NCBI GenBank assembly: GCA_030154385.1
Contig: JASKJZ010000132.1
Location: 1 to 7,058 of the forward strand
Reading direction: 5' to 3'
DNA from: Clostridiales bacterium
Lineage (GTDB): Bacteria; Bacillota_A; Clostridia; Lachnospirales; Lachnospiraceae
Length of the DNA stretch: 7,058 nt
Shown: in pieces, positions 1 to 7,058 of the stretch
Layout: the number at the start of each line of letters is the position of its first letter
How positions within the stretch are numbered: the stretch's first letter is position 1
Translations under genes and position numbers: made by a program
Notes under the pieces: model-generated
Seen by the model: the letters and a program-made list of their open reading frames with translations, nothing else
Database searches by the model: none
Told to the model about the DNA's origin: nothing

Positions 1-246
1 TGGGACTTTAACCTGTTGTTTATTAAACTTGAGATTAGCTTTCCTATTATAGTAAGTAATATCACATTCTTCATTCATACATAAATAATAATCGTAGTCA
101 CCAATTTGTTCTATCAACTCATCACTTACTATATGTTTTACTGTAATATTTTTTACATAAGTACCCTTGATTCCGCAAACCGGACACAATTTATTTTCCA
201 ACTCACATGAAGATTTGCTTGAGCTTTCATAGCAGCATTTATTCAA
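1..246 (-). CDS. CopZ-N-like iron-sulfur/zinc metallochaperone, 3' end beyond window
   Basis: This partial reading frame gives 82 residues from a TTG start and is still open at the window edge. The start is set by GGGAGGT at 253-259, about 7 nt upstream; no ATG lies nearby in frame. Cysteines fall at residues 4, 5, 14, 21, 24, 56 and 61. A CPVCG motif at 21-25 and a YYLCMNEEC-type motif at 54-61 resemble the N-terminal domain of Archaeoglobus CopZ and the related 'putative iron-sulfur cluster-binding metallochaperone' proteins, which bind a [2Fe-2S] cluster and zinc in that domain (family knowledge, recalled). It lies 118 nt downstream of arsC, beyond a hairpin, so it may be a weakly co-transcribed last gene of the ars operon or have its own transcript. 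It is probably a cytoplasmic carrier of metal or arsenite to a partner. Family call is moderately sure; substrate is unknown. Confidence 0.7.
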   Translation of the reverse strand, partial: MNKCCYESSSKSSCELENKLCPVCGIKGTYVKNITVKHIVSDELIEQIGDYDYYLCMNEECDITYYNRKANLKFNKQQVKVP

Positions 247-324
247 ATTTTGACCTCCCATTCAATTCTTTCTTACATATTATGTGCATTAATAATAGCT
301 ATTTTTAGACAATACTAACCTTTA

Positions 325-364: not shown

Positions 365-769
365 TTATGATTTTAGTCTTTCTTTTAGTTCTTTAATCTT
401 TGTCTCTATTGTAGATATTACTTTTTTAAATTCCTCATCACTCTTTCCGGTAGGATCATCAAGTCCCCAATCCTCGCGGTGCTTACATGGCAGATATGGG
501 CATTCCACATTGCACCCCATCGTAACAACGATATCTACTGGAGGGATTTCATCAAGTAGCTTAGAACGTTGGGTTAATTCCATATCTATATTATATATCT
601 CTTTCATAAGCCTAACTGCATCTTGATTGATTTGAGGTTTGGTTTCAGTACCGGCAGAATAACTTTCAAATACGTCACTCGCAAAGTGTTTACCAAGAGC
701 TTCTGCTATTTGAGATCTACAAGAGTTATGGACGCATATAAATGCTACCTTTGTTTTAGTATCACTCAT
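365..769 (-). CDS. arsC: Arsenate reductase ArsC, low-molecular-weight phosphatase type
   Basis: This 134-residue cytoplasmic enzyme reduces arsenate to arsenite, the form exported by Acr3. The phosphatase-like loop C-x5-R is at C12-R18 (CVHNSCR), with a second cysteine at 17. The resolving region holds C86 and C90 (MGCNVEC), plus an extra C95, and a WGLDDP motif at 101-106 supplies the conserved aspartate of this fold. This matches the thioredoxin-coupled ArsC family (pI258/B. subtilis type) in length and motif order, although the spacing of the redox cysteines is shorter than in those enzymes. The start at 769 is chosen because AAAGGAGG lies 7 nt upstream; the longer ATG at 793 would put that site inside the coding region and overlap acr3. 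It follows acr3 by 13 nt in the same operon. Confidence 0.95.
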   Translation of the reverse strand: MSDTKTKVAFICVHNSCRSQIAEALGKHFASDVFESYSAGTETKPQINQDAVRLMKEIYNIDMELTQRSKLLDEIPPVDIVVTMGCNVECPYLPCKHREDWGLDDPTGKSDEEFKKVISTIETKIKELKERLKS

Positions 770-782
770 AATTTTTCCTCCT

Positions 783-1841
783 TTATTTTGCATCTGGCTT
801 TGGAAACCAGTGCTTTGTATTATTTGCTATTTTAACCAGAATCAACATGACTGGTACTTCAACAAGTACACCTACAATGGTCGCTAATGCAACCGGACTT
901 TGGGTTCCGAAAAGTGCAATAGCTACAGCAACAGCCAATTCAAAGAAGTTTGAAGCACCAATCATACCAGCAGGAGCCGCTACATTATGTGGTAGCTTTA
1001 AAGTTTTACTTGCCAGATAAGCGATGAAGAATATTAGGAAAGTCTGGATAATCAATGGTATAGCAATTAAAACAATGTGTAATGGATTATTCAGAATTAC
1101 ATCGCCCTGAAATGAAAAAATAATTACTAAAGTCAGCAATAAACCTATGATGGTGATATTTCCGAATTTTGGTATGAAACTCTTTTCAAAGTATTCGAAC
1201 CCTCTCTTGTTCGTGATATAGTTACGAGTAATTACTCCACCAGCTAAAGGAATCACAACAAACAATACTACAGAAAGGATAAGGGTATCCCATGGAATCT
1301 GCACACCACTAACACCCAAGAGAAACGCTACTATAGGCGTAAAGGCTACAAGAATAATAAGATCATTTGTTGCCACTTGCACCACAGTATAAGCTGCATT
1401 TCCTTTTGTCAAATGGCTCCATACAAATACCATCGCCGTACATGGAGCAGCCCCAAGAAGAATTGCTCCTGCAAGATAATCCTTTGCCAGTTCAGCTGGG
1501 ATAAACGCTTTAAATATCACATAGAAAAACAGCCATGCAATACCGAACATGGTAAAGGGTTTTATCAACCAGTTAGTTATCCATGTGACAAAAAGTCCTT
1601 TAGGATTTTTACCTACATTCTTGATGCTTTGAAAATCAACCTTTAGCATCATTGGGTAAATCATAAGCCATATAAGAATAGCAATTGGGATAGATACTTC
1701 TGCATATTCAAATTGGCCTAAAAAAGCAGGGATTCCAGGCAAAAATTTACCAATAAGTACACCTGCAATCATGCATAATGCTACCCATATAGTTAGATAT
1801 TTTTCAAAGAATCCTATTCCTTGTGTCTTTTCATTACTCAT
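783..1841 (-). CDS. acr3: Arsenite efflux permease of the ACR3 family
   Basis: This 352-residue integral membrane protein has about ten hydrophobic segments, the usual size and layout for ACR3 transporters of the BART superfamily. These export As(III), and sometimes Sb(III), using the proton gradient. The signature segment GAAPCTAMVFVWS (residues 130-142) contains C134, corresponding to the functionally essential cysteine of characterised ACR3 proteins. A second conserved region, GASNFFELAVA (295-305), carries the conserved glutamate E301. The start is ATG with AAGAAGG about 7 nt upstream. It lies 36 nt after arsR and 13 nt before arsC, so it is the middle gene of an arsR-acr3-arsC operon and should be under ArsR control. 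No truncation is seen. Confidence 0.96.
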   Translation of the reverse strand: MSNEKTQGIGFFEKYLTIWVALCMIAGVLIGKFLPGIPAFLGQFEYAEVSIPIAILIWLMIYPMMLKVDFQSIKNVGKNPKGLFVTWITNWLIKPFTMFGIAWLFFYVIFKAFIPAELAKDYLAGAILLGAAPCTAMVFVWSHLTKGNAAYTVVQVATNDLIILVAFTPIVAFLLGVSGVQIPWDTLILSVVLFVVIPLAGGVITRNYITNKRGFEYFEKSFIPKFGNITIIGLLLTLVIIFSFQGDVILNNPLHIVLIAIPLIIQTFLIFFIAYLASKTLKLPHNVAAPAGMIGASNFFELAVAVAIALFGTQSPVALATIVGVLVEVPVMLILVKIANNTKHWFPKPDAK

Positions 1842-1877: not shown

Positions 1878-2216
1878 CTAATAACACTCTATATCTTTTC
1901 TTATAATCCAAGCCTCAAGATTGCTCAGGTCAGATTTAAACGATTCTTTTGAGCGAATATTTTCATGTATAAGGCTATCTAAAAACTTATTATTTGTGTT
2001 CCGTACAACTGAATAGTACACCCACTGAGCTTGTTTTCGGTCCTCTACAAGACCTGCATTTTTTAAATATTTCAAGTGTCTTGATGCTTTAGTCTGTGTT
2101 ATGCCTAATGTCTCAACAATATCACAGACACAAAGATCTTTAGTATAAAGTAAATTTATAATTCTCAATCTAGTTTCGTCTGACAGAGCTTTCATCATGT
2201 CAACAATATTTTCCAC
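1878..2216 (-). CDS. arsR: ArsR-family As(III)-responsive transcriptional repressor
   Basis: This is a 112-residue winged-helix repressor. The N-terminal segment DETRLRIINLL (13-23) leads into DLCVCDIVETL, where C29 and C31 form the CxC metalloid-binding motif of type I ArsR proteins. The recognition helix region is TQTKASRHLKYLKNAGLV, followed by a wing ending near WVYYSV. A further cysteine, C111, sits next to the C terminus and could be a third ligand; that is inference. Translation starts at GTG (2216-2214), with AGGAGAGGAG about 7 nt upstream; the ATG six codons in has no comparable site. It is the first gene of arsR-acr3-arsC, and a perfect inverted repeat at its promoter gives a likely autoregulatory operator. 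Binding of As(III) or Sb(III) should release it from DNA. Confidence 0.95.
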   Translation of the reverse strand: MENIVDMMKALSDETRLRIINLLYTKDLCVCDIVETLGITQTKASRHLKYLKNAGLVEDRKQAQWVYYSVVRNTNNKFLDSLIHENIRSKESFKSDLSNLEAWIIRKDIECY

Positions 2217-2244
2217 CTATATACTCCTCTCCTTAATATTTGTA

Positions 2245-2262
2245 TATTCGCTTATGCGAATA
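2245..2262 (-). promoter_or_regulatory. ArsR operator palindrome
   Basis: A perfect inverted repeat, TATTCGC-TTAT-GCGAATA, lies 28 nt upstream of the arsR GTG start and 7 bp downstream of the -10 box, so it covers the expected transcription start. ATTCGC/GCGAAT half-sites of this kind are common for ArsR/SmtB repressors. The repeat is seen directly; ArsR binding is inferred from position. Confidence 0.8.
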
Positions 2263-2269
2263 CATACAT

Positions 2270-2298
2270 ATTATACACCATAGTGCATTCAAATAAAA
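2270..2298 (-). promoter_or_regulatory. Promoter of the arsR-acr3-arsC operon
   Basis: Reading the minus strand, a perfect TATAAT -10 box is at 2275-2270. At 17-bp spacing the -35 position (2298-2293) holds TTTTAT, a poor match. The -10 is directly followed by the ArsR palindrome, the usual arrangement for a derepressible promoter. The -10 call is stronger than the -35 call. Confidence 0.65.
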
Positions 2299-2452: not shown

Positions 2453-2806
2453 TTAGCCTCTTACTTTTTGCAGTATCTTTACTACCTCATCAGTTTTAAG
2501 AACCTTACCATAGGAAACCACTTTTCCATCGATGACAAGAGCAGGGGTAGCCATCACTCCATACGCTGCAATCTGTGAAAAATCAGTTACATGATCAATA
2601 GTAGTATCCATTCCAAGTTGTTCCAAGGCTGCTTTTGTTGCCTCTTCAAGTTGATTACACTTGGCACATCCACTTCCCAATACCTTTACTCCTGCACCTT
2701 CAGATTTAGCGGTTTCTGCTTTTGCCATGCTTTCAGTATCACAATTTCCACCACAGCAACAAGATTTAGTTTCCTCTTTTTTACTCTTCTTACCAAACAA
2801 TGCCAT
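2453..2806 (-). CDS. Small thioredoxin-fold redox-active disulfide protein with Cys-rich N terminus
   Basis: This 117-residue protein shows no signal peptide or membrane segment and is probably cytoplasmic. A lysine-rich head (MALFGKKSKKEE) leads into SCCCGGNC (15-22), a likely metal or thiol site. A linker is followed from about residue 40 by a compact thioredoxin-like domain of the 'redox-active disulfide protein 2' type: CxxC active site GCAKC (C47, C50) and cis-proline segment MATPAL (P88). The head motif closely resembles the C-terminal tail of the ferredoxin/DUF2703 protein in the same operon. The ATG is preceded by AGGAGA about 8 nt upstream and lies 26 nt after the CcdA-like gene. A natural role is donating electrons to the CcdA-like transporter, or shuttling metalloid thiolates; both are inference. 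It is the last gene of operon A. Confidence 0.85.
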   Translation of the reverse strand: MALFGKKSKKEETKSCCCGGNCDTESMAKAETAKSEGAGVKVLGSGCAKCNQLEEATKAALEQLGMDTTIDHVTDFSQIAAYGVMATPALVIDGKVVSYGKVLKTDEVVKILQKVRG

Positions 2807-2832
2807 AATAATTCTCTCCTTTTAATATTATT

Positions 2833-3522
2833 TTAAAACCCAAGATAAAACATATAAAAACCAATAAGCAATATCAAAGTACCCATCGCTATTTTCAACA
2901 CAGTGCTTACTTTACCATATTTTTTGCTCGAAGAAAGCTTTTGAACAAAGCCTATAGACGTTCCAGCTACAATTGCAAGAATGCCATGACCAATTGAATA
3001 CAGTAGCAATAATAATATTCCCCAAAAAACGCTTCCTTTTCCGGCTACAATAGCAAGTAGAGCAATAAGTACAGGCGTAGAGCAGGGTGAGGAAAAAACT
3101 CCTCCAAGAATTCCAGCAATAAAAGCACCTAAGTAGCCTTTTTTAGTATTTTTAGAAATAAGATAACTCGAAGGTATAATTTCATATATTCCCCAAGTCT
3201 GCAAAGCCATTAACAACATTAAAACACCAAGAATAATGTACCACCATGATGCTGAAGTACCAATTAAACGACCAGCAATAGAAGCAGTTACCCCAAGCGT
3301 TGTAAATGTAACAGCAGCTCCCAAAGCGAAAGTGACCGATAGCCAAAAGGCTCTTTTTGTATCGCGCTGACCTGTGCCCCCTACATATCCTATGACTAGA
3401 GGGATGCTAGACAAAGAACACGGGGTAAAAGAAGTAAGTACTCCAGCAAAAAGTGCAAGAACAGGTGCAAGCAAACCACTCTCGGTAATTATTTCGGATA
3501 AACCTTCTAGGAGTTGTGTCAT
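2833..3522 (-). CDS. ccdA: CcdA-type transmembrane thiol-disulfide electron transporter
   Basis: This 229-residue membrane protein has six hydrophobic segments, the normal size for CcdA (DsbD transmembrane domain family). The two hallmark cysteines lie in the expected settings: C35 in FTPCSLSSIP and C147 in FSSPCSTPVL. The family passes reducing equivalents from cytoplasmic thioredoxin across the membrane to an extracytoplasmic thioredoxin-fold protein, often for cytochrome c maturation, but no cytochrome gene is nearby here. Its ATG overlaps the stop of the upstream thioredoxin-like gene by 4 nt (ATGA), with GGAGG just upstream, which implies translational coupling and a functional pair. A thioredoxin-like protein is encoded on each side: a membrane-anchored one upstream, a soluble one downstream. 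This matches an outside acceptor and an inside donor. The symbol denotes the family, not a proven role. Confidence 0.9.
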   Translation of the reverse strand: MTQLLEGLSEIITESGLLAPVLALFAGVLTSFTPCSLSSIPLVIGYVGGTGQRDTKRAFWLSVTFALGAAVTFTTLGVTASIAGRLIGTSASWWYIILGVLMLLMALQTWGIYEIIPSSYLISKNTKKGYLGAFIAGILGGVFSSPCSTPVLIALLAIVAGKGSVFWGILLLLLYSIGHGILAIVAGTSIGFVQKLSSSKKYGKVSTVLKIAMGTLILLIGFYMFYLGF

Positions 3523-4079
3523 TCATCCACCTCCATGTCGGCAAGGATAGCCCTCATCTGCTCTTCTGTCAGTCCACCTTGGTGAACTGTGAAAGCATGC
3601 TCACCTGTATCCTTGTGGCTATACATATCAAACTTAATTTGTATATCATCGCTTGGCACATAAGGTTTTCCGTCAGCCTTGATAATTACCTGAGTAGGAA
3701 TCACCTGAATAGGAAAATCCTTTGCAACTTCTCCGTTTTTCCATACGTCAACAAACTTGATTATTGCTTTACCTTGCATTTCTGCATTTAATGTTTTTAG
3801 TACAGGAGCCATTTCCTTGCATGGAATACATGAATCGGCTCCGAAATCAATGATAATGGGTAGCTTATACTCCTTCAGTGCATCTAAATCAATTGATGTT
3901 GCCTCAAGTACAAAATCTTCTTCATTCTTAGGTGTTACAAGGTTTTCTGCCCCTTTGTTCTCAGGAAGAGCCACAATGGGATCTGAACCTTTATTTACAT
4001 TCTTGAACATCCAAATTCCTGCAACAATGAGAACCAAACAAATGGTGATTATGACTTTAAGTAGTTTTTTCTTATCCAT
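3519..4079 (-). CDS. Membrane-anchored thioredoxin-like protein
   Basis: This 186-residue protein has an N-terminal lysine patch and one hydrophobic helix (about residues 7-25), followed by a thioredoxin domain that should face outside the membrane. The active site is SCIPC (C84, C87) within DFGADSCIPCKEM, with serine in place of the tryptophan of ordinary WCxxC thioredoxins. The cis-proline is P128 in VIPTQ. C14 in the helix does not sit in a convincing lipobox, so a lipoprotein is unlikely. The chosen ATG at 4079 overlaps the upstream TGA by one base. A TTG at 4088 would add three residues but lies only 3 nt from GGAGG, too close to use. The 3' end overlaps the CcdA-like gene by 4 nt. It probably receives electrons from CcdA and reduces a disulfide or metalloid species outside; the target is unknown. 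Confidence 0.88.
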   Translation of the reverse strand: MDKKKLLKVIITICLVLIVAGIWMFKNVNKGSDPIVALPENKGAENLVTPKNEEDFVLEATSIDLDALKEYKLPIIIDFGADSCIPCKEMAPVLKTLNAEMQGKAIIKFVDVWKNGEVAKDFPIQVIPTQVIIKADGKPYVPSDDIQIKFDMYSHKDTGEHAFTVHQGGLTEEQMRAILADMEVDE

Positions 4080-4843
4080 CAGCAGCAATCACCTCCACAA
4101 GAGCAGCTAGATTTATTTTTCTTTCCTCCATAAAATTCTTTTAGATTTTCAGGTAATTCATACTCTCCGCATGAGCAACCGGTTTCCATCTGCCCAAATA
4201 CCGCATTTAAGATAGCTTCAGCGAGCATTTCTTTCGGAGGCACTTCATAGGATTCCCCTTTATACTCAAACACCCGGCAGTTAACATCGGTTCCGCTTAT
4301 GTCACTACAGCAGCCGCAGCTATTCTCTGCAACCGATTGACAAATATCCTGACCGTTCACGCGGATTGTAGGCGATGAAAGAAACCGATATTGTTCTGCA
4401 ATTTCCGCTGTTTTCATCTCGATTTTGTTATACTCTACTTCAAAACCAGCAAGGCTTAGTGCAGGGGCAAGTGTCATCATGACCTTATCAAGTACATTGT
4501 CCGTTCCAATGCAACGGTCACAAGTTTTAAGATCAAGATAGAGATACTCAATAATAATTTTCTTTTCGGATGCTGTTTCACATCCGCAGGAGCAACAGGA
4601 TTCCTCCACTAATTGCTCTCCGTTTGGCGGAGTCCAACCAGTGTCCTCACCCAAATAGGTGATCGCACCGACCGGGCAACGGTTGCCACAGCCATGACAA
4701 TGATCGACACATAACTCAGGATTTTTTACAACAGGTGAAGGGGCCTTTGTTTTGTCATATACACCATGGGAGCACTTTGCTACACACGTGCCACACTCCA
4801 CGCATGTCAGATAATCAATAACAGGATACCATTTCTTTGCCAT
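4079..4843 (-). CDS. Ferredoxin-like (2x 4Fe-4S) plus DUF2703 fusion, Cys-rich
   Basis: This 254-residue cytoplasmic protein has 25 cysteines. Residues 10-60 form a ferredoxin-like module with two cluster motifs: C14/C17/C20/C24 (CVECGTCVAKC) and C45/C49/C52/C56 ending in CP. A linker holds SCCSCGC (82-88). From about 95 to 215 is a DUF2703-type domain with TCDRC (C108, C111), SSPTIRVNG (157-164), C168, CGCC (176-179) and C189. The tail has CSC (223-225) and SCSCGGDCC (246-254). DUF2703 proteins recur in arsenic-related clusters, but their reaction is not established to my knowledge. The start at ATG 4843 follows AAGGAGG by 9 nt; the upstream TTG at 4867 would bury that site. It begins 32 nt after the second half-permease and abuts the thioredoxin-like gene. 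It may carry electrons or hold soft metal(loid)s; this is inference. Confidence 0.85.
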   Translation of the reverse strand: MAKKWYPVIDYLTCVECGTCVAKCSHGVYDKTKAPSPVVKNPELCVDHCHGCGNRCPVGAITYLGEDTGWTPPNGEQLVEESCCSCGCETASEKKIIIEYLYLDLKTCDRCIGTDNVLDKVMMTLAPALSLAGFEVEYNKIEMKTAEIAEQYRFLSSPTIRVNGQDICQSVAENSCGCCSDISGTDVNCRVFEYKGESYEVPPKEMLAEAILNAVFGQMETGCSCGEYELPENLKEFYGGKKNKSSCSCGGDCC

Positions 4844-4875
4844 ACTTGGTTTCCTCCTTAAATTCAATTGAGTCC

Positions 4876-5415
4876 TTAATAATCAAAGTTTTCTGCGTTC
4901 TTATATATCTTGTTGACTTCCTCTTTAGAAGCCAATTTTGCAAGAATAACTGCTATAATTATAATTCCAGGTATATCAACAAGCAGTCTTGTTACAGCAA
5001 ATTTAGTACCTAAAGCAGCTACTTCAAACAAAAGCATCGGTATTTTCGTAGTCGACCATGCACCAATAAAAATTAAAACGTTGCTGAACTTAACGCCTTT
5101 TTTCATAAAAACAGCTGCTACAGGAAATGCACCATATAAAGGTCCGGCTGCAGCAGAACCAATAAATATGGATAAAAGAATACCCTTCAACCCTGACCCT
5201 TCCCCCATATATTTGATCATTGTTTCTCTTGGAACCCATATATCTAAAAGTCCAAGGAGTACAAATATAGGTGGTATTACAAGAATCATTTCTTTTAATG
5301 AATATCCAGTTATGTTCAACGCTTTTATTCCTAGTTCATAATTGAATATGGTCAATATCAAAATCCCAGTTGCTACTGCTATAAATGCTCGATATCTTTT
5401 CAATATTTTTTTCAT
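4876..5415 (-). CDS. Half-size permease, ArsP/COG0701-like (second of a pair)
   Basis: This 179-residue protein has about five hydrophobic segments (roughly 11-25, 41-60, 79-100, 110-135, 142-163). The core VPRETMIKYMGEGSG leads to IGSAAAGPLYGAFPVAAVFM and FIGAWSTTKIPM. This matches one repeat unit of the two-repeat ArsP/permease fold, including the upstream ArsP protein's C-terminal half, but at about half the full length. It contains no cysteine, so it lacks the FCSCSS-type site of ArsP. It starts 1 nt after the stop of the other half-permease, so the two are probably made together and form a heteromeric channel or carrier. The acidic-aromatic C terminus (ENFDY) is likely cytoplasmic. The substrate is not shown by the sequence; the neighbours suggest a thiophilic metal(loid) or a thiol compound. 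Confidence 0.8.
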   Translation of the reverse strand: MKKILKRYRAFIAVATGILILTIFNYELGIKALNITGYSLKEMILVIPPIFVLLGLLDIWVPRETMIKYMGEGSGLKGILLSIFIGSAAAGPLYGAFPVAAVFMKKGVKFSNVLIFIGAWSTTKIPMLLFEVAALGTKFAVTRLLVDIPGIIIIAVILAKLASKEEVNKIYKNAENFDY

Positions 5416-5416
5416 A

Positions 5417-5893
5417 TTAAGACACCACCAAACTAATAATATATGCTACAACGAATGAGAAGATAAAGGCTAAAATATTCCGGTATATAGTAAGTTTCTT
5501 CCCAAAATATTTAATTTCAACCGGTATTGTAACAACGCCTACCATCATCAGAGTTGAGATAAAAGCTCCTATTTGCATGTACCCTGCACCACCTTGCAAA
5601 AGTAATGCTGCGGTTGGAAAGGCAACAAAACCAGGTATTAAGGTGACCGCTCCAACAATTGCAGCCAGAACAACTCCCATCCAACCTGAATCAGAACCAA
5701 TGATTGTTGAAATGACCTCTGGATTTACAACTGCAAGTAGCACACCAACCAATATAATAACAACTAAGAATTCAGGCAGAATGTTTTCAAAAGCTTTCCA
5801 TGCTTTTCTTAAGGCCATCTTCGTCTTCTTCTTATCTTTATAATATGAGAATAATAATAATGCCACGGTAATTATATATAATGCTATATTCAT
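5417..5893 (-). CDS. Half-size permease, ArsP/COG0701-like (first of a pair)
   Basis: This 158-residue membrane protein has about five hydrophobic segments (roughly 2-17, 40-59, 73-96, 102-122, 138-157) and a lysine-rich loop (KDKKKTK) after the first. Its core, NPEVISTIIGSDSG followed by IVGAVTLIPGFVAFPTAALLL and FISTLMMVGVVTIP, aligns by eye with the next gene's core in the order P, G-SG, IG, P-G-FP-AA, G, FI. Both therefore look like homologous half-units of one permease. It has no cysteine. The ATG follows GAGGGTG by about 7 nt. A large palindrome lies between it and the ArsP gene, so it may also have its own regulated transcript. The family call rests on these repeat features; the transported substrate is unknown. 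Confidence 0.8.
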   Translation of the reverse strand: MNIALYIITVALLLFSYYKDKKKTKMALRKAWKAFENILPEFLVVIILVGVLLAVVNPEVISTIIGSDSGWMGVVLAAIVGAVTLIPGFVAFPTAALLLQGGAGYMQIGAFISTLMMVGVVTIPVEIKYFGKKLTIYRNILAFIFSFVVAYIISLVVS

Positions 5894-5916
5894 ATAATCA
5901 CACCCTCTTTCCTTAT

Positions 5917-5938
5917 GTAGTGTAAATTTTTACACTAC
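5917..5938. promoter_or_regulatory. 22-bp palindrome upstream of the half-permease pair, possible operator
   Basis: Ten-bp arms GTAGTGTAAA and TTTACACTAC flank a central TT with no mismatch. It sits 23 nt upstream of the half-permease ATG and 11 nt after the ArsP stop. A TATAAA hexamer (minus strand, 5954-5949) is 10 bp upstream, without a good -35. There is no U run after the stem on the minus strand, so an operator or an mRNA-processing hairpin fits better than a terminator. The sequence differs from the ArsR palindrome. Confidence 0.55.
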
Positions 5939-5949
5939 CCTTATTAAGT

Positions 5950-6954
5950 TTATACAAGCAGATAGCCAAAAGCATTGAATAGGTATCCAATGACGATTAT
6001 TCCAATAGTTACCACACCGAAAAATACTGCTAATAACTTTGTCTTAACAACTTTTTTAAGCATTATCATAGACGGAAGCGAAAGCGCAGTAACACCCATC
6101 ATAAAAGATAGTACCGTTCCAAGTCCAACTCCCTTTAACACTAAAGCTTCTGCAATCGGAAGCGTTCCGAATATATCCGCATACATAGGTACACCAACGA
6201 ATGTTGCAATAAGCACAGAATACCACTTATCCTGACCGAGAACCGCTGAAATAATATTTTCAGGTACCCAATTGTGTATTGCAGCCCCAATGCCAACTCC
6301 TATCAGAATATAAAGCCAAACTTTTTTCACAATATCTTTTACTTGATCTTTCCCGAAATTTATTCTTTCTTTAGTAGTCAGTTCTTCTTGCTCTGATTCC
6401 ATCATTTTATTGCTATAAACAAAAGGTTCTACATAATCTTCAAGTTTAGCCTTGCTTATTATAGTTCCACCTAAAACAGCCAGAACAAGACCTACCAACA
6501 CGTATGCTATCGCAATTTTCCAGTTGAAGATGCTGGCAAGCAATAGTACAGATGCCAAATCAACAAGTGGGGATGAAATCAAGAAAGAGAAGGTAACCCC
6601 TATTGGAAGTCCTGCACTAGTAAATCCAATAAAAAGTGGTATTGATGAACACGAGCAAAATGGTGTTATCGTTCCTAGCAAAGCTCCCAGTATATTGGCA
6701 GTAACTCCATTATATCTTCCGAGTATTTTTCTCGTCCTCTCCGGAGGAAAAAAACTCTGTACATATGAAATCGCAAATATAAGTACAGATAATAATATAA
6801 ATATTTTTACGATATCATAAATGAAAAAGTGAATACTTCCGCCAAGTCTCTCTGAGATATTCAAGCCAAACACATCTTCTACTAAAATCTTTACTAGATC
6901 AGATAACCACACCATTTTTAATAGCTGATTATTTAAAAACTCAAAAATAAACAT
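5950..6954 (-). CDS. arsP: ArsP-family permease (putative organoarsenical efflux)
   Basis: This 334-residue protein has about eight to ten hydrophobic segments in two similar halves joined by a charged cytoplasmic loop (about 168-210). The first half carries GTITPFCSCSSIPLF (94-108) with C100 and C102, the hallmark of ArsP and related COG0701 permeases. The second has VPENIISAVLG and FVGVPMYADIFGTLP. Characterised ArsP proteins export trivalent organoarsenicals such as methylarsenite (family knowledge); the actual substrate here is inferred. The start is uncertain: the ATG at 6954 lies 5 bp from the IS end and has no Shine-Dalgarno site beyond a G-rich stretch about 13 nt away, and M14 (6915) has none either. 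Insertion has probably removed the native leader and may have cut a few N-terminal codons. It is the first gene of operon A in this window. Confidence 0.85.
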   Translation of the reverse strand: MFIFEFLNNQLLKMVWLSDLVKILVEDVFGLNISERLGGSIHFFIYDIVKIFILLSVLIFAISYVQSFFPPERTRKILGRYNGVTANILGALLGTITPFCSCSSIPLFIGFTSAGLPIGVTFSFLISSPLVDLASVLLLASIFNWKIAIAYVLVGLVLAVLGGTIISKAKLEDYVEPFVYSNKMMESEQEELTTKERINFGKDQVKDIVKKVWLYILIGVGIGAAIHNWVPENIISAVLGQDKWYSVLIATFVGVPMYADIFGTLPIAEALVLKGVGLGTVLSFMMGVTALSLPSMIMLKKVVKTKLLAVFFGVVTIGIIVIGYLFNAFGYLLV

Positions 6955-6961
6955 ATTTTTG

Positions 6962-7016
6962 TACCGACCCCCAAAAGTTAGACCATAAAATCTAACAATT
7001 GGAGGTCGGTATTTTT
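6962..7016 (+). promoter_or_regulatory. IS-end hairpin over the transposase ribosome binding site, with T run
   Basis: Positions 6962-6982 pair with 6991-7011: 8 bp, a C-A mismatch, 4 bp, a 2x2 A-A internal loop, then 6 bp closed by an 8-nt loop. The 3' arm contains the whole GGAGG (7001-7005), and TTTTT follows at 7012-7016. A transcript entering from outside would mask the ribosome binding site and might terminate. Pairing is seen; function is inferred. Confidence 0.6.
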
Positions 7017-7058
7017 ATGTCCAAATATTCTTTTGAATTTAAAAAGCAAGTTGTAAAT
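7017..7058 (+). CDS. IS3-family transposase orfA, N-terminal fragment (runs off window)
   Basis: Only 14 codons are present, MSKYSFEFKKQVVN, still open at the edge. The phrase YSFEFKKQVV is typical of the start of the helix-turn-helix OrfA protein of IS3/IS150 elements, which binds the element ends and is normally joined to the DDE catalytic OrfB by programmed frameshifting. GGAGG lies 11 nt upstream of the ATG. It is the only plus-strand gene in the window and is divergent from the ArsP permease gene. Whether the full element is intact cannot be seen. Confidence 0.8.
   Translation, partial: MSKYSFEFKKQVVN

Follow-up and report, generated by a model that had tools for sequence, protein, structure and literature searches.

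A modular ArsP–ArsE arsenic-resistance island with a putative transmembrane thiol relay in a Lachnospiraceae contig

What is a CcdA-type membrane electron carrier doing next to an ArsP-type permease, together with an anchored thioredoxin and a ferredoxin-like protein? The question is raised by a 7,058-nucleotide stretch of DNA (the window) from a Clostridiales bacterium of the Lachnospiraceae (assembly GCA_030154385.1, contig JASKJZ010000132.1), in which seven adjacent genes had been described, in an original prediction made from the sequence alone, as a transport and dithiol-relay operon of undefined function. Our analysis suggests that the block is the front part of an ArsP-type arsenic-resistance island, with ArsP and the soluble dithiol protein ArsE as its core, to which modules have been added, and with a CcdA relay running from ArsE to the thioredoxin TrxA; we assign this reading as a whole a probability of roughly 0.55. 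Its parts differ in strength: the gene set very probably serves in arsenic handling, CcdA likely relays electrons across the membrane to TrxA, and the more specific assignments of ArsE as the donor and of the ferredoxin–DUF2703 protein (FdD) as the entry point are tentative and, on balance, doubtful. The seven genes are, in order of transcription:

5950..6954, minus strand: ArsP-type permease, 334 amino acids (aa), with a TPF-CSC motif (Cys100, Cys102); Pfam family ArsP_1
5417..5893, minus strand: half-permease HP1, 158 aa, matching the first half of ArsP_1
4876..5415, minus strand: half-permease HP2, 179 aa, matching the first half of ArsP_1
4079..4843, minus strand: FdD, a 2x[4Fe-4S] ferredoxin domain fused to DUF2703 with a Cys-rich tail, 254 aa
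3519..4079, minus strand: TrxA, an N-terminally anchored thioredoxin with a CIPC motif (Cys87, Cys90 in 189-aa numbering)
2833..3522, minus strand: CcdA/DsbD_TM-type membrane electron carrier, 229 aa, with Cys35 and Cys147
2453..2806, minus strand: ArsE (MTH895 family, 'redox-active disulfide protein 2'), 117 aa, with CAKC and an N-terminal CCC..C

The seven open reading frames run along the minus strand from 6954 down to 2453. Judged by the starts of relatives, the start of FdD was moved from TTG 4867 to ATG 4843 (254 aa) and that of TrxA from TTG 4088 to ATG 4079 (186 aa); with these corrected starts the successive intergenic spacings are 56, 1, 32, −1, −4 and 26 bp, such that FdD and TrxA overlap by one base and TrxA and CcdA by four. 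The close, single-strand packing that had been predicted was therefore confirmed, with no gap exceeding 56 bp, and Pfam/NCBIfam-type profile scores upheld the predicted family identities. ArsP aligns with PF03773 (ArsP_1) over profile positions 4–293 of 294 (236.5 bits, over the cut-off) and carries the family's C(S/T)C motif (PMC4435449) as CSC at residues 100–102, with both cysteines kept in 64 of 64 aligned relatives; this full-length match and the motif together place it in the ArsP family, and its similarity to the ArsP of locus L019 is 84%. HP1 covers only profile positions 14–134 of 294 (31.3 bits, slightly below the cut-off of 32.3) and HP2 only positions 4–146 of 294 (56.2 bits), and no conserved cysteine was found in either (9 and 6 relatives aligned, respectively). 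ArsE scores 99 bits against TIGR00412 (cut-off 62) and retains its CxxC motif in 66 of 66 relatives, identifying it as a member of the MTH895/ArsE family, and it matches structure 1ilo with E = 2.5e-12; its additional cysteines, Cys16–18 and Cys22, are present in 54–58 of the 66.

The redox proteins between them are equally recognizable. In FdD the DUF2703 profile scores 125.3 bits, alongside 4Fe-4S dicluster domains; each of the eight cysteines of the ferredoxin domain is present in 63–65 of 65 relatives, and the DUF2703 CxxC together with C184, C186, C187 and C197 in 57 of 57. The structural model of residues 101–220 (mean predicted local distance difference test score, pLDDT, of 80–97 per block) adopts a thioredoxin-like fold, with fold scores that are only middling; the model of the ferredoxin part, built from 22 sequences, is poor. 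DUF2703 has been assigned to the thioredoxin clan, with 1ilo (MTH895, of the ArsE family) as top structure match, according to PMC3091736. TrxA contains a thioredoxin domain (49.2 bits) with its CxxC in 21 of 21 relatives, is modeled with a thioredoxin fold (pLDDT 86.6), and has a single hydrophobic helix at its N-terminus preceded by a positively charged start, because of which the thioredoxin domain should be external. CcdA scores 91.6 bits against DsbD_TM (PF02683, cut-off 27.1), and its Cys35 and Cys147 align with the two cysteines of the solved CcdA 5vkv and are both present in 22 of 22 relatives, which makes it a CcdA/DsbD_TM protein. The suggestion that this CcdA has no cytochrome-related role is in keeping with the nearest genome compared (G001, perhaps not kin): it yielded no ResB match, in a search whose control was positive in 5 of 14 genomes, and no at-threshold DsbD_TM match.

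The block does not stop at ArsE, where the original prediction had drawn its limit; arsR, acr3 and arsC continue on the same strand, beginning 236 bp past ArsE, and two inverted repeats lie in the gaps:

1878..2216, minus strand: ArsR/SmtB repressor with an LCVCD motif (HTH_5, 60.7 bits; NF033788, 97 bits, cut-off 55)
783..1841, minus strand: Acr3-type arsenite efflux permease (SBF, 148.5 bits), with relatives in ars loci
365..793, minus strand: ArsC, a thioredoxin-type arsenate reductase by resemblance (LMWPc, 61.8 bits)
2234..2273: operator-like inverted repeat immediately upstream of arsR, with 18-nt arms that are 83% complementary
5917..5938: perfect inverted repeat between ArsP and HP1, with 10-bp arms and a 2-bp spacer

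The linkage of ArsR, an arsenite permease and an arsenate reductase on one strand marks this as an ars operon, although ArsC lies beneath its NCBIfam cut-offs (95 bits against NF010053, cut-off 215). In relatives where an ArsR lies directly upstream of ArsP, the CxC pair is present in 60 of 60 and a CC near the end in 47 of 60; cysteines of this kind form the trivalent-arsenic sites of known ArsR proteins. Among As(III), MAs(III), roxarsone, Sb, Hg and Cd as conceivable substrates, trivalent arsenicals are suggested by the cysteines of ArsR, by the motif in ArsP and by the neighbouring acr3 and arsC. The core of the operator-like repeat reads ATTCGC-TTAT-GCGAAT (2246–2261). Both arms of the 5917–5938 palindrome recur in the G001 copy of the locus, with an altered spacer, and a pattern check found its core in none of the other compared loci; the two palindromes, in the ArsP–HP1 and arsR gaps, allow for more than one transcript from the region.

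To establish which genes belong together, FdD was used as bait against GTDB contigs, which gave 79 loci. Profiles were mapped on the bait strand, over a span reaching 2.6 kb upstream and 6.5 kb downstream of the point where the bait match starts; in a full-context subset of 48 loci, no less than 2 kb is available upstream and 6.5 kb downstream, and the counts ignore kinship. An ArsP–(ferredoxin and/or DUF2703)–ArsE arrangement, in this order and on one strand, is present at 64 of the 79 loci, some of the other 15 being cut by contig ends. By profile (79 loci, with the full-context count in brackets), ArsR was detected in 65 (42), ArsP in 69 (41), ferredoxin in 65 (42), DUF2703 in 58 (34), TrxA in 24 (15), CcdA in 24 (14), ArsE in 67 (41), HP1 in 12 (6), HP2 in 7 (4), Acr3 in 27 (15) and ArsC in 34 (23). 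ArsP and ArsE come and go together, jointly present in 41 and jointly absent in 7 of the 48 full-context loci. TrxA and CcdA likewise form a unit: both occur in 14 of the 48, neither in 33, and TrxA alone in one (L019, fragments only); a CcdA match was found anywhere in 25 loci, all 25 of which also have a TrxA match (L075 contributing a remote pair), and ArsP accompanies it in 23, ArsE in 21 and ArsC in 12. The ferredoxin and DUF2703 parts may be fused or separate, with ferredoxin-only loci making up 21 and DUF2703-only loci 14 of the 79, and because they occur either way they are best regarded as exchangeable extras to an ArsP–ArsE core.

The complete seven-gene set was detected by profile at only 5 of the 79 loci (L011, L014, L043, L046 and L055), with a sixth (L054, from a Synergistaceae assembly) in rearranged order and on both strands. 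Unlike in the window, no half-permease is sited between ArsP and FdD in any of the six, and in the first five the pair follows ArsE. The half-permease pair is present in nine of the 79 loci (these six plus L004, L008 and L040), and pieces of HP1 in three more (L002, L036 and L038), those of L036 and L038 being broken and sited between ArsP and FdD. In a search independent of FdD among 296 genomes of G001's class, 23 had an HP1 match, and of the 23 loci examined only that of G001 has an ars gene within ~1.5 kb; the HP1 sequences from ars loci do not form a single clade. On contig C10 of genome G062 (L080, L125), a half-permease pair lies ~4 kb from a same-strand ArsR–ArsP–ArsE set.

Other searches dispensed with the FdD bait. 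TIGR00412 matches occur in 68 of the 296 genomes of G001's class, and of the 30 loci that this search yielded, 26 carry an ArsP match at most 400 bp from ArsE and on the same strand (5 of the 26 at 21–24% identity); CcdA is near ArsE in one, which is G001's own remnant. On plasmids, 46 records have an ArsE match, and of six regions opened by choice, five (from Bacillota, Fusobacteriota and Pseudomonadota) have ArsE after an annotated 'permease'; the sixth, from Sulfuricella, has ArsE beside arsC and a thioredoxin–CcdA pair ~7 kb off. That pair (L114 4787–5895) falls outside the ArsP operon plan, its neighbours being OsmC and a resistance-nodulation-division (RND) efflux set. Conservation shows the core to be the ArsP–ArsE gene pair, with TrxA–CcdA, the half-permeases, Acr3 and ArsC as optional modules. 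Rare co-occurrence elsewhere, which would have told against the prediction, was not seen for the core; the seven genes as a single unit are not supported, TrxA–CcdA and the half-permeases being separable from the remainder and the full set occurring at only 5 or 6 of the 79 loci.

Fusion proteins provide a further line of evidence. In thirteen public proteins a predicted membrane helix links an ArsE to a thioredoxin domain, the order being an N-terminal CAKC or CPKC, the helix and then a C[KIM]PC motif. They are 36–84% identical to P0031 over the aligned part (the query itself excluded) and, because its diverged members have a common layout, the set looks natural; scoring was confined to the 7996 candidates with the most shared words, and most fusions are single sequences. 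These proteins place ArsE and the anchored thioredoxin in one presumptive route, and because a single helix cannot carry electrons, CcdA would be expected between them. In P0117, an anchored thioredoxin is joined to CcdA in one protein (TM-Trx-CcdA, where TM is a transmembrane helix). Among 35 long ArsE-domain proteins, the partner is DUF2703 in six (one also with ferredoxin), ArsP_1 in eight, an Acr3 family domain in one and thioredoxin in one, and the remaining 19 have unrelated partner domains or none. Several of the ArsE–ArsP joins were discounted, as they probably arose through loss of a stop codon or in assembly. A single open frame in a Treponema assembly (L062 8835–10292) encodes ArsE–Acr3 and may reflect a one-base stop loss. 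Of 102 relatives of an ArsE–thioredoxin protein, 23 have a MerB-type domain joined to the TrxA-related thioredoxin (for example P0064, P0078, P0099 and P0103), two of them with an additional NosL domain.

The G001 copy offers a close comparison. It contains the same island (99.8% identical over 2941 bp and 99.1% over 1172 bp) without the DNA corresponding to window positions 2942–5789: at the junction (L110 7951–7958), DNA encoding HP1 residues 1–35 joins DNA encoding the last 35 of CcdA at an 8-base direct repeat, and HP2, FdD and TrxA are missing from the locus (a single assembly, in which an assembly error is possible). In G001, arsR precedes ArsP, behind a promoter-like sequence. The second ArsR of G001 (L110 8676–9014) has Phe at the position of the window's second CxC cysteine. 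In the window, positions 6957–7058 (plus strand) are instead the end of an insertion sequence, which we take to be IS3-like, with a transposase-like start at 7017; of the 203 Enterococcus plasmid records that match, 202 are 80–90% identical to its positions 6957–7044. It takes the place of the upstream DNA as far as some six bases from the ArsP start codon, parting ArsP from the ribosome-binding site and arsR that are present in the G001 copy. Beside the G001 island, at L110 531–6263, lie reading frames that resemble, by eye, an ABC-F protein, an rRNA methylase, a transposase and the remnant of a large serine recombinase, and these neighbours suggest a mobile island. At the other end of the window (1–261, minus strand, after arsC) lies a gene for a Csac_0668-family-like 2Fe-2S (seleno)protein, cut by the window end (107.6 bits, cut-off 190), of which a longer copy is found at L110 10631–11119.

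In the reading that we favour, ArsP would export trivalent, mainly organic, arsenicals, with ArsE as its soluble dithiol partner and with arsenic-type ArsR control as in the relatives. Low-potential electrons may enter FdD through its 4Fe-4S clusters and reach ArsE by way of the DUF2703 CxxC; ArsE would maintain both the trivalent arsenical and the ArsP CSC motif as thiols in the cytosol; CcdA would move electrons across the membrane to the external TrxA, which would reduce disulfides or arsenic–thiol adducts at the export side, and the Acr3–ArsC module would handle inorganic arsenic. A CcdA relay from ArsE to an external TrxA is favoured because of the conserved cysteines, the joint inheritance of TrxA and CcdA, and the ArsE-helix-thioredoxin and thioredoxin–CcdA fusions. 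The idea of a coherent metal(loid) gene set built on thiol chemistry thus survives, in an arsenic context and with dithiols likely on both sides of the membrane. A stronger form, in which FdD links ArsE directly to the ferredoxin pool of the anaerobe in a dedicated transmembrane thiol pathway, and CcdA–TrxA carries the same electrons outside to free or keep reduced the trivalent (organo)arsenical exported by ArsP, seems rather improbable to us.

Several observations weigh against this relay. TrxA–CcdA is absent from 33 of the 48 full-context loci and CcdA from 29 of the 30 ArsE loci, meaning that ArsP–ArsE manages without it, and a ~99% identical locus, that of G001, has lost FdD together with the relay. 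Ferredoxin-only and DUF2703-only loci render a fixed ferredoxin-to-DUF2703 chain unnecessary. The 79 loci were themselves gathered through FdD and the statistics disregard kinship; most fusions are represented by one sequence each, drawn from metagenome-type collections, and no relevant partner domain is present in 19 of the 35 long ArsE-domain proteins. Because the insertion sequence cuts ArsP from its upstream region, expression of the window block is uncertain. Finally, the same cysteines could carry arsenic rather than electrons.

This last point leads to an alternative that we consider unlikely: that ArsE and DUF2703 are ArsD-like arsenic metallochaperones giving As(III)/MAs(III) to ArsP and Acr3, with the external TrxA accepting or releasing the arsenical. 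The well-conserved cysteines beyond the CxxC motifs of ArsE and DUF2703 would suit such carriers, as would the joining of ArsE to ArsP, DUF2703 and Acr3 family domains and in the L062 frame, and DUF2703 is also reported fused to ArsD, besides its relationship to 1ilo (PMC3091736); however, several of the joins, among them P0011/P0013 and P0017 (the latter with adapter-like residues), look like the result of stop loss or misassembly, and a ferredoxin domain and CcdA are better suited to electrons. We hold it to be no more probable that the redox genes feed ArsC, with TrxA, ArsE and FdD recycling a cytosolic arsenate reductase and the transmembrane role of CcdA being secondary or lost. The arsC gene is indeed in the window and in 23 of the full-context loci, all 23 of which have ArsE, but it accompanies CcdA in 12 of 25 loci against 23 for arsP (ArsP being near-constant in the sample anyway), and the N-terminal membrane anchor would place TrxA outside.

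A broader thiol or organometal system of the SAO kind (for mercury or other metals), merely parked in an ars island, is very improbable. ArsP does match the SaoE model NF040736 (116.4 bits) and the SO_0444 Cu/Zn efflux model NF033936 (112.4 bits), ArsE weakly matches SaoT (16 bits), and the MerB-type domains beside thioredoxin would fit; these matches are far under the respective cut-offs of 325, 300 and 65, which places ArsP in neither the SAO nor the SO_0444 family, no organomercurial-lyase family turned up in the profile scans of the window proteins, and the linked genes are arsR, acr3 and arsC. The ArsE-to-TrxA relay beside an ArsP–ArsE core remains the reading that we prefer.

Trivalent methylated arsenic has been proposed as an antibiotic between anaerobes (PMC11653729). 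The FdD/TrxA/CcdA module bears on how thiols along the export route stay reduced. A module that comes and goes beside ArsP–ArsE permits a direct genetic test, with G001, lacking the module (if this is not an assembly error), as a natural comparison. If the ferredoxin-driven pathway proved true, it would amount to a DsbD counterpart specific to arsenic and circumventing NADPH–thioredoxin reductase.

Work by Chen in 2015 reportedly described ArsP as a methylarsenite/roxarsone efflux permease. The window ArsP shares with the proteins of PMC4435449 the family, the CSC motif and the preceding TPF (cluster 2 of that paper), and differs from characterised ArsP in its additional redox partner genes, export being its presumed function here. 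The function of the block was less undefined than predicted: it belongs to an ars operon, and Castillo & Saier described CcdA, a thioredoxin and 'redox-active disulfide protein 2' in ars operons as early as 2010 (PMC2963123), a trio of the window's TrxA/CcdA/ArsE type, with eight instances in seven organisms, seven of them with arsC. The available part of that account ties the trio to ArsC and makes no mention of a ferredoxin–DUF2703 protein, a half-permease, a fusion or an ArsP–ArsE rule. As in the window, a DUF2703 gene lies among arsR, acr3 and arsC in the ars cluster of Rhodococcus aetherivorans BCP1 (PMC6514093) and likewise in Peptoclostridium acidaminophilum; unlike in the window, no ferredoxin fusion is reported in the available text and the gene is placed elsewhere than between ArsP and ArsE. 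For two anaerobic methylating isolates, arsP and a gene of the thioredoxin family are among the ars operon genes named in a figure legend (PMC12124457). Our literature search found no report of a ferredoxin–DUF2703 protein between ArsP and ArsE, of modular rules or of ArsE–thioredoxin fusions.

The window's MTH895-type family is named ArsE by NCBIfam after the ArsEFG system, reportedly described in Shewanella putrefaciens by Chen, Zhang and Rosen in 2019. ArsG, a DsbD_TM-like membrane protein to judge by a profile cross-match, is not what the window encodes: the window's CcdA scores 43.2 bits against the ArsG model NF040495 (cut-off 200) and retains both CcdA cysteines. The DsbD and CcdA–ResA types are transmembrane dithiol relays, and the window resembles them in its two-cysteine CcdA, anchored thioredoxin and cytosolic dithiol protein; it departs from them in sitting in an arsenic operon and in its proposed donor, ArsE. 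The operon type is already known; the modular thiol-electron extension is what is unusual.

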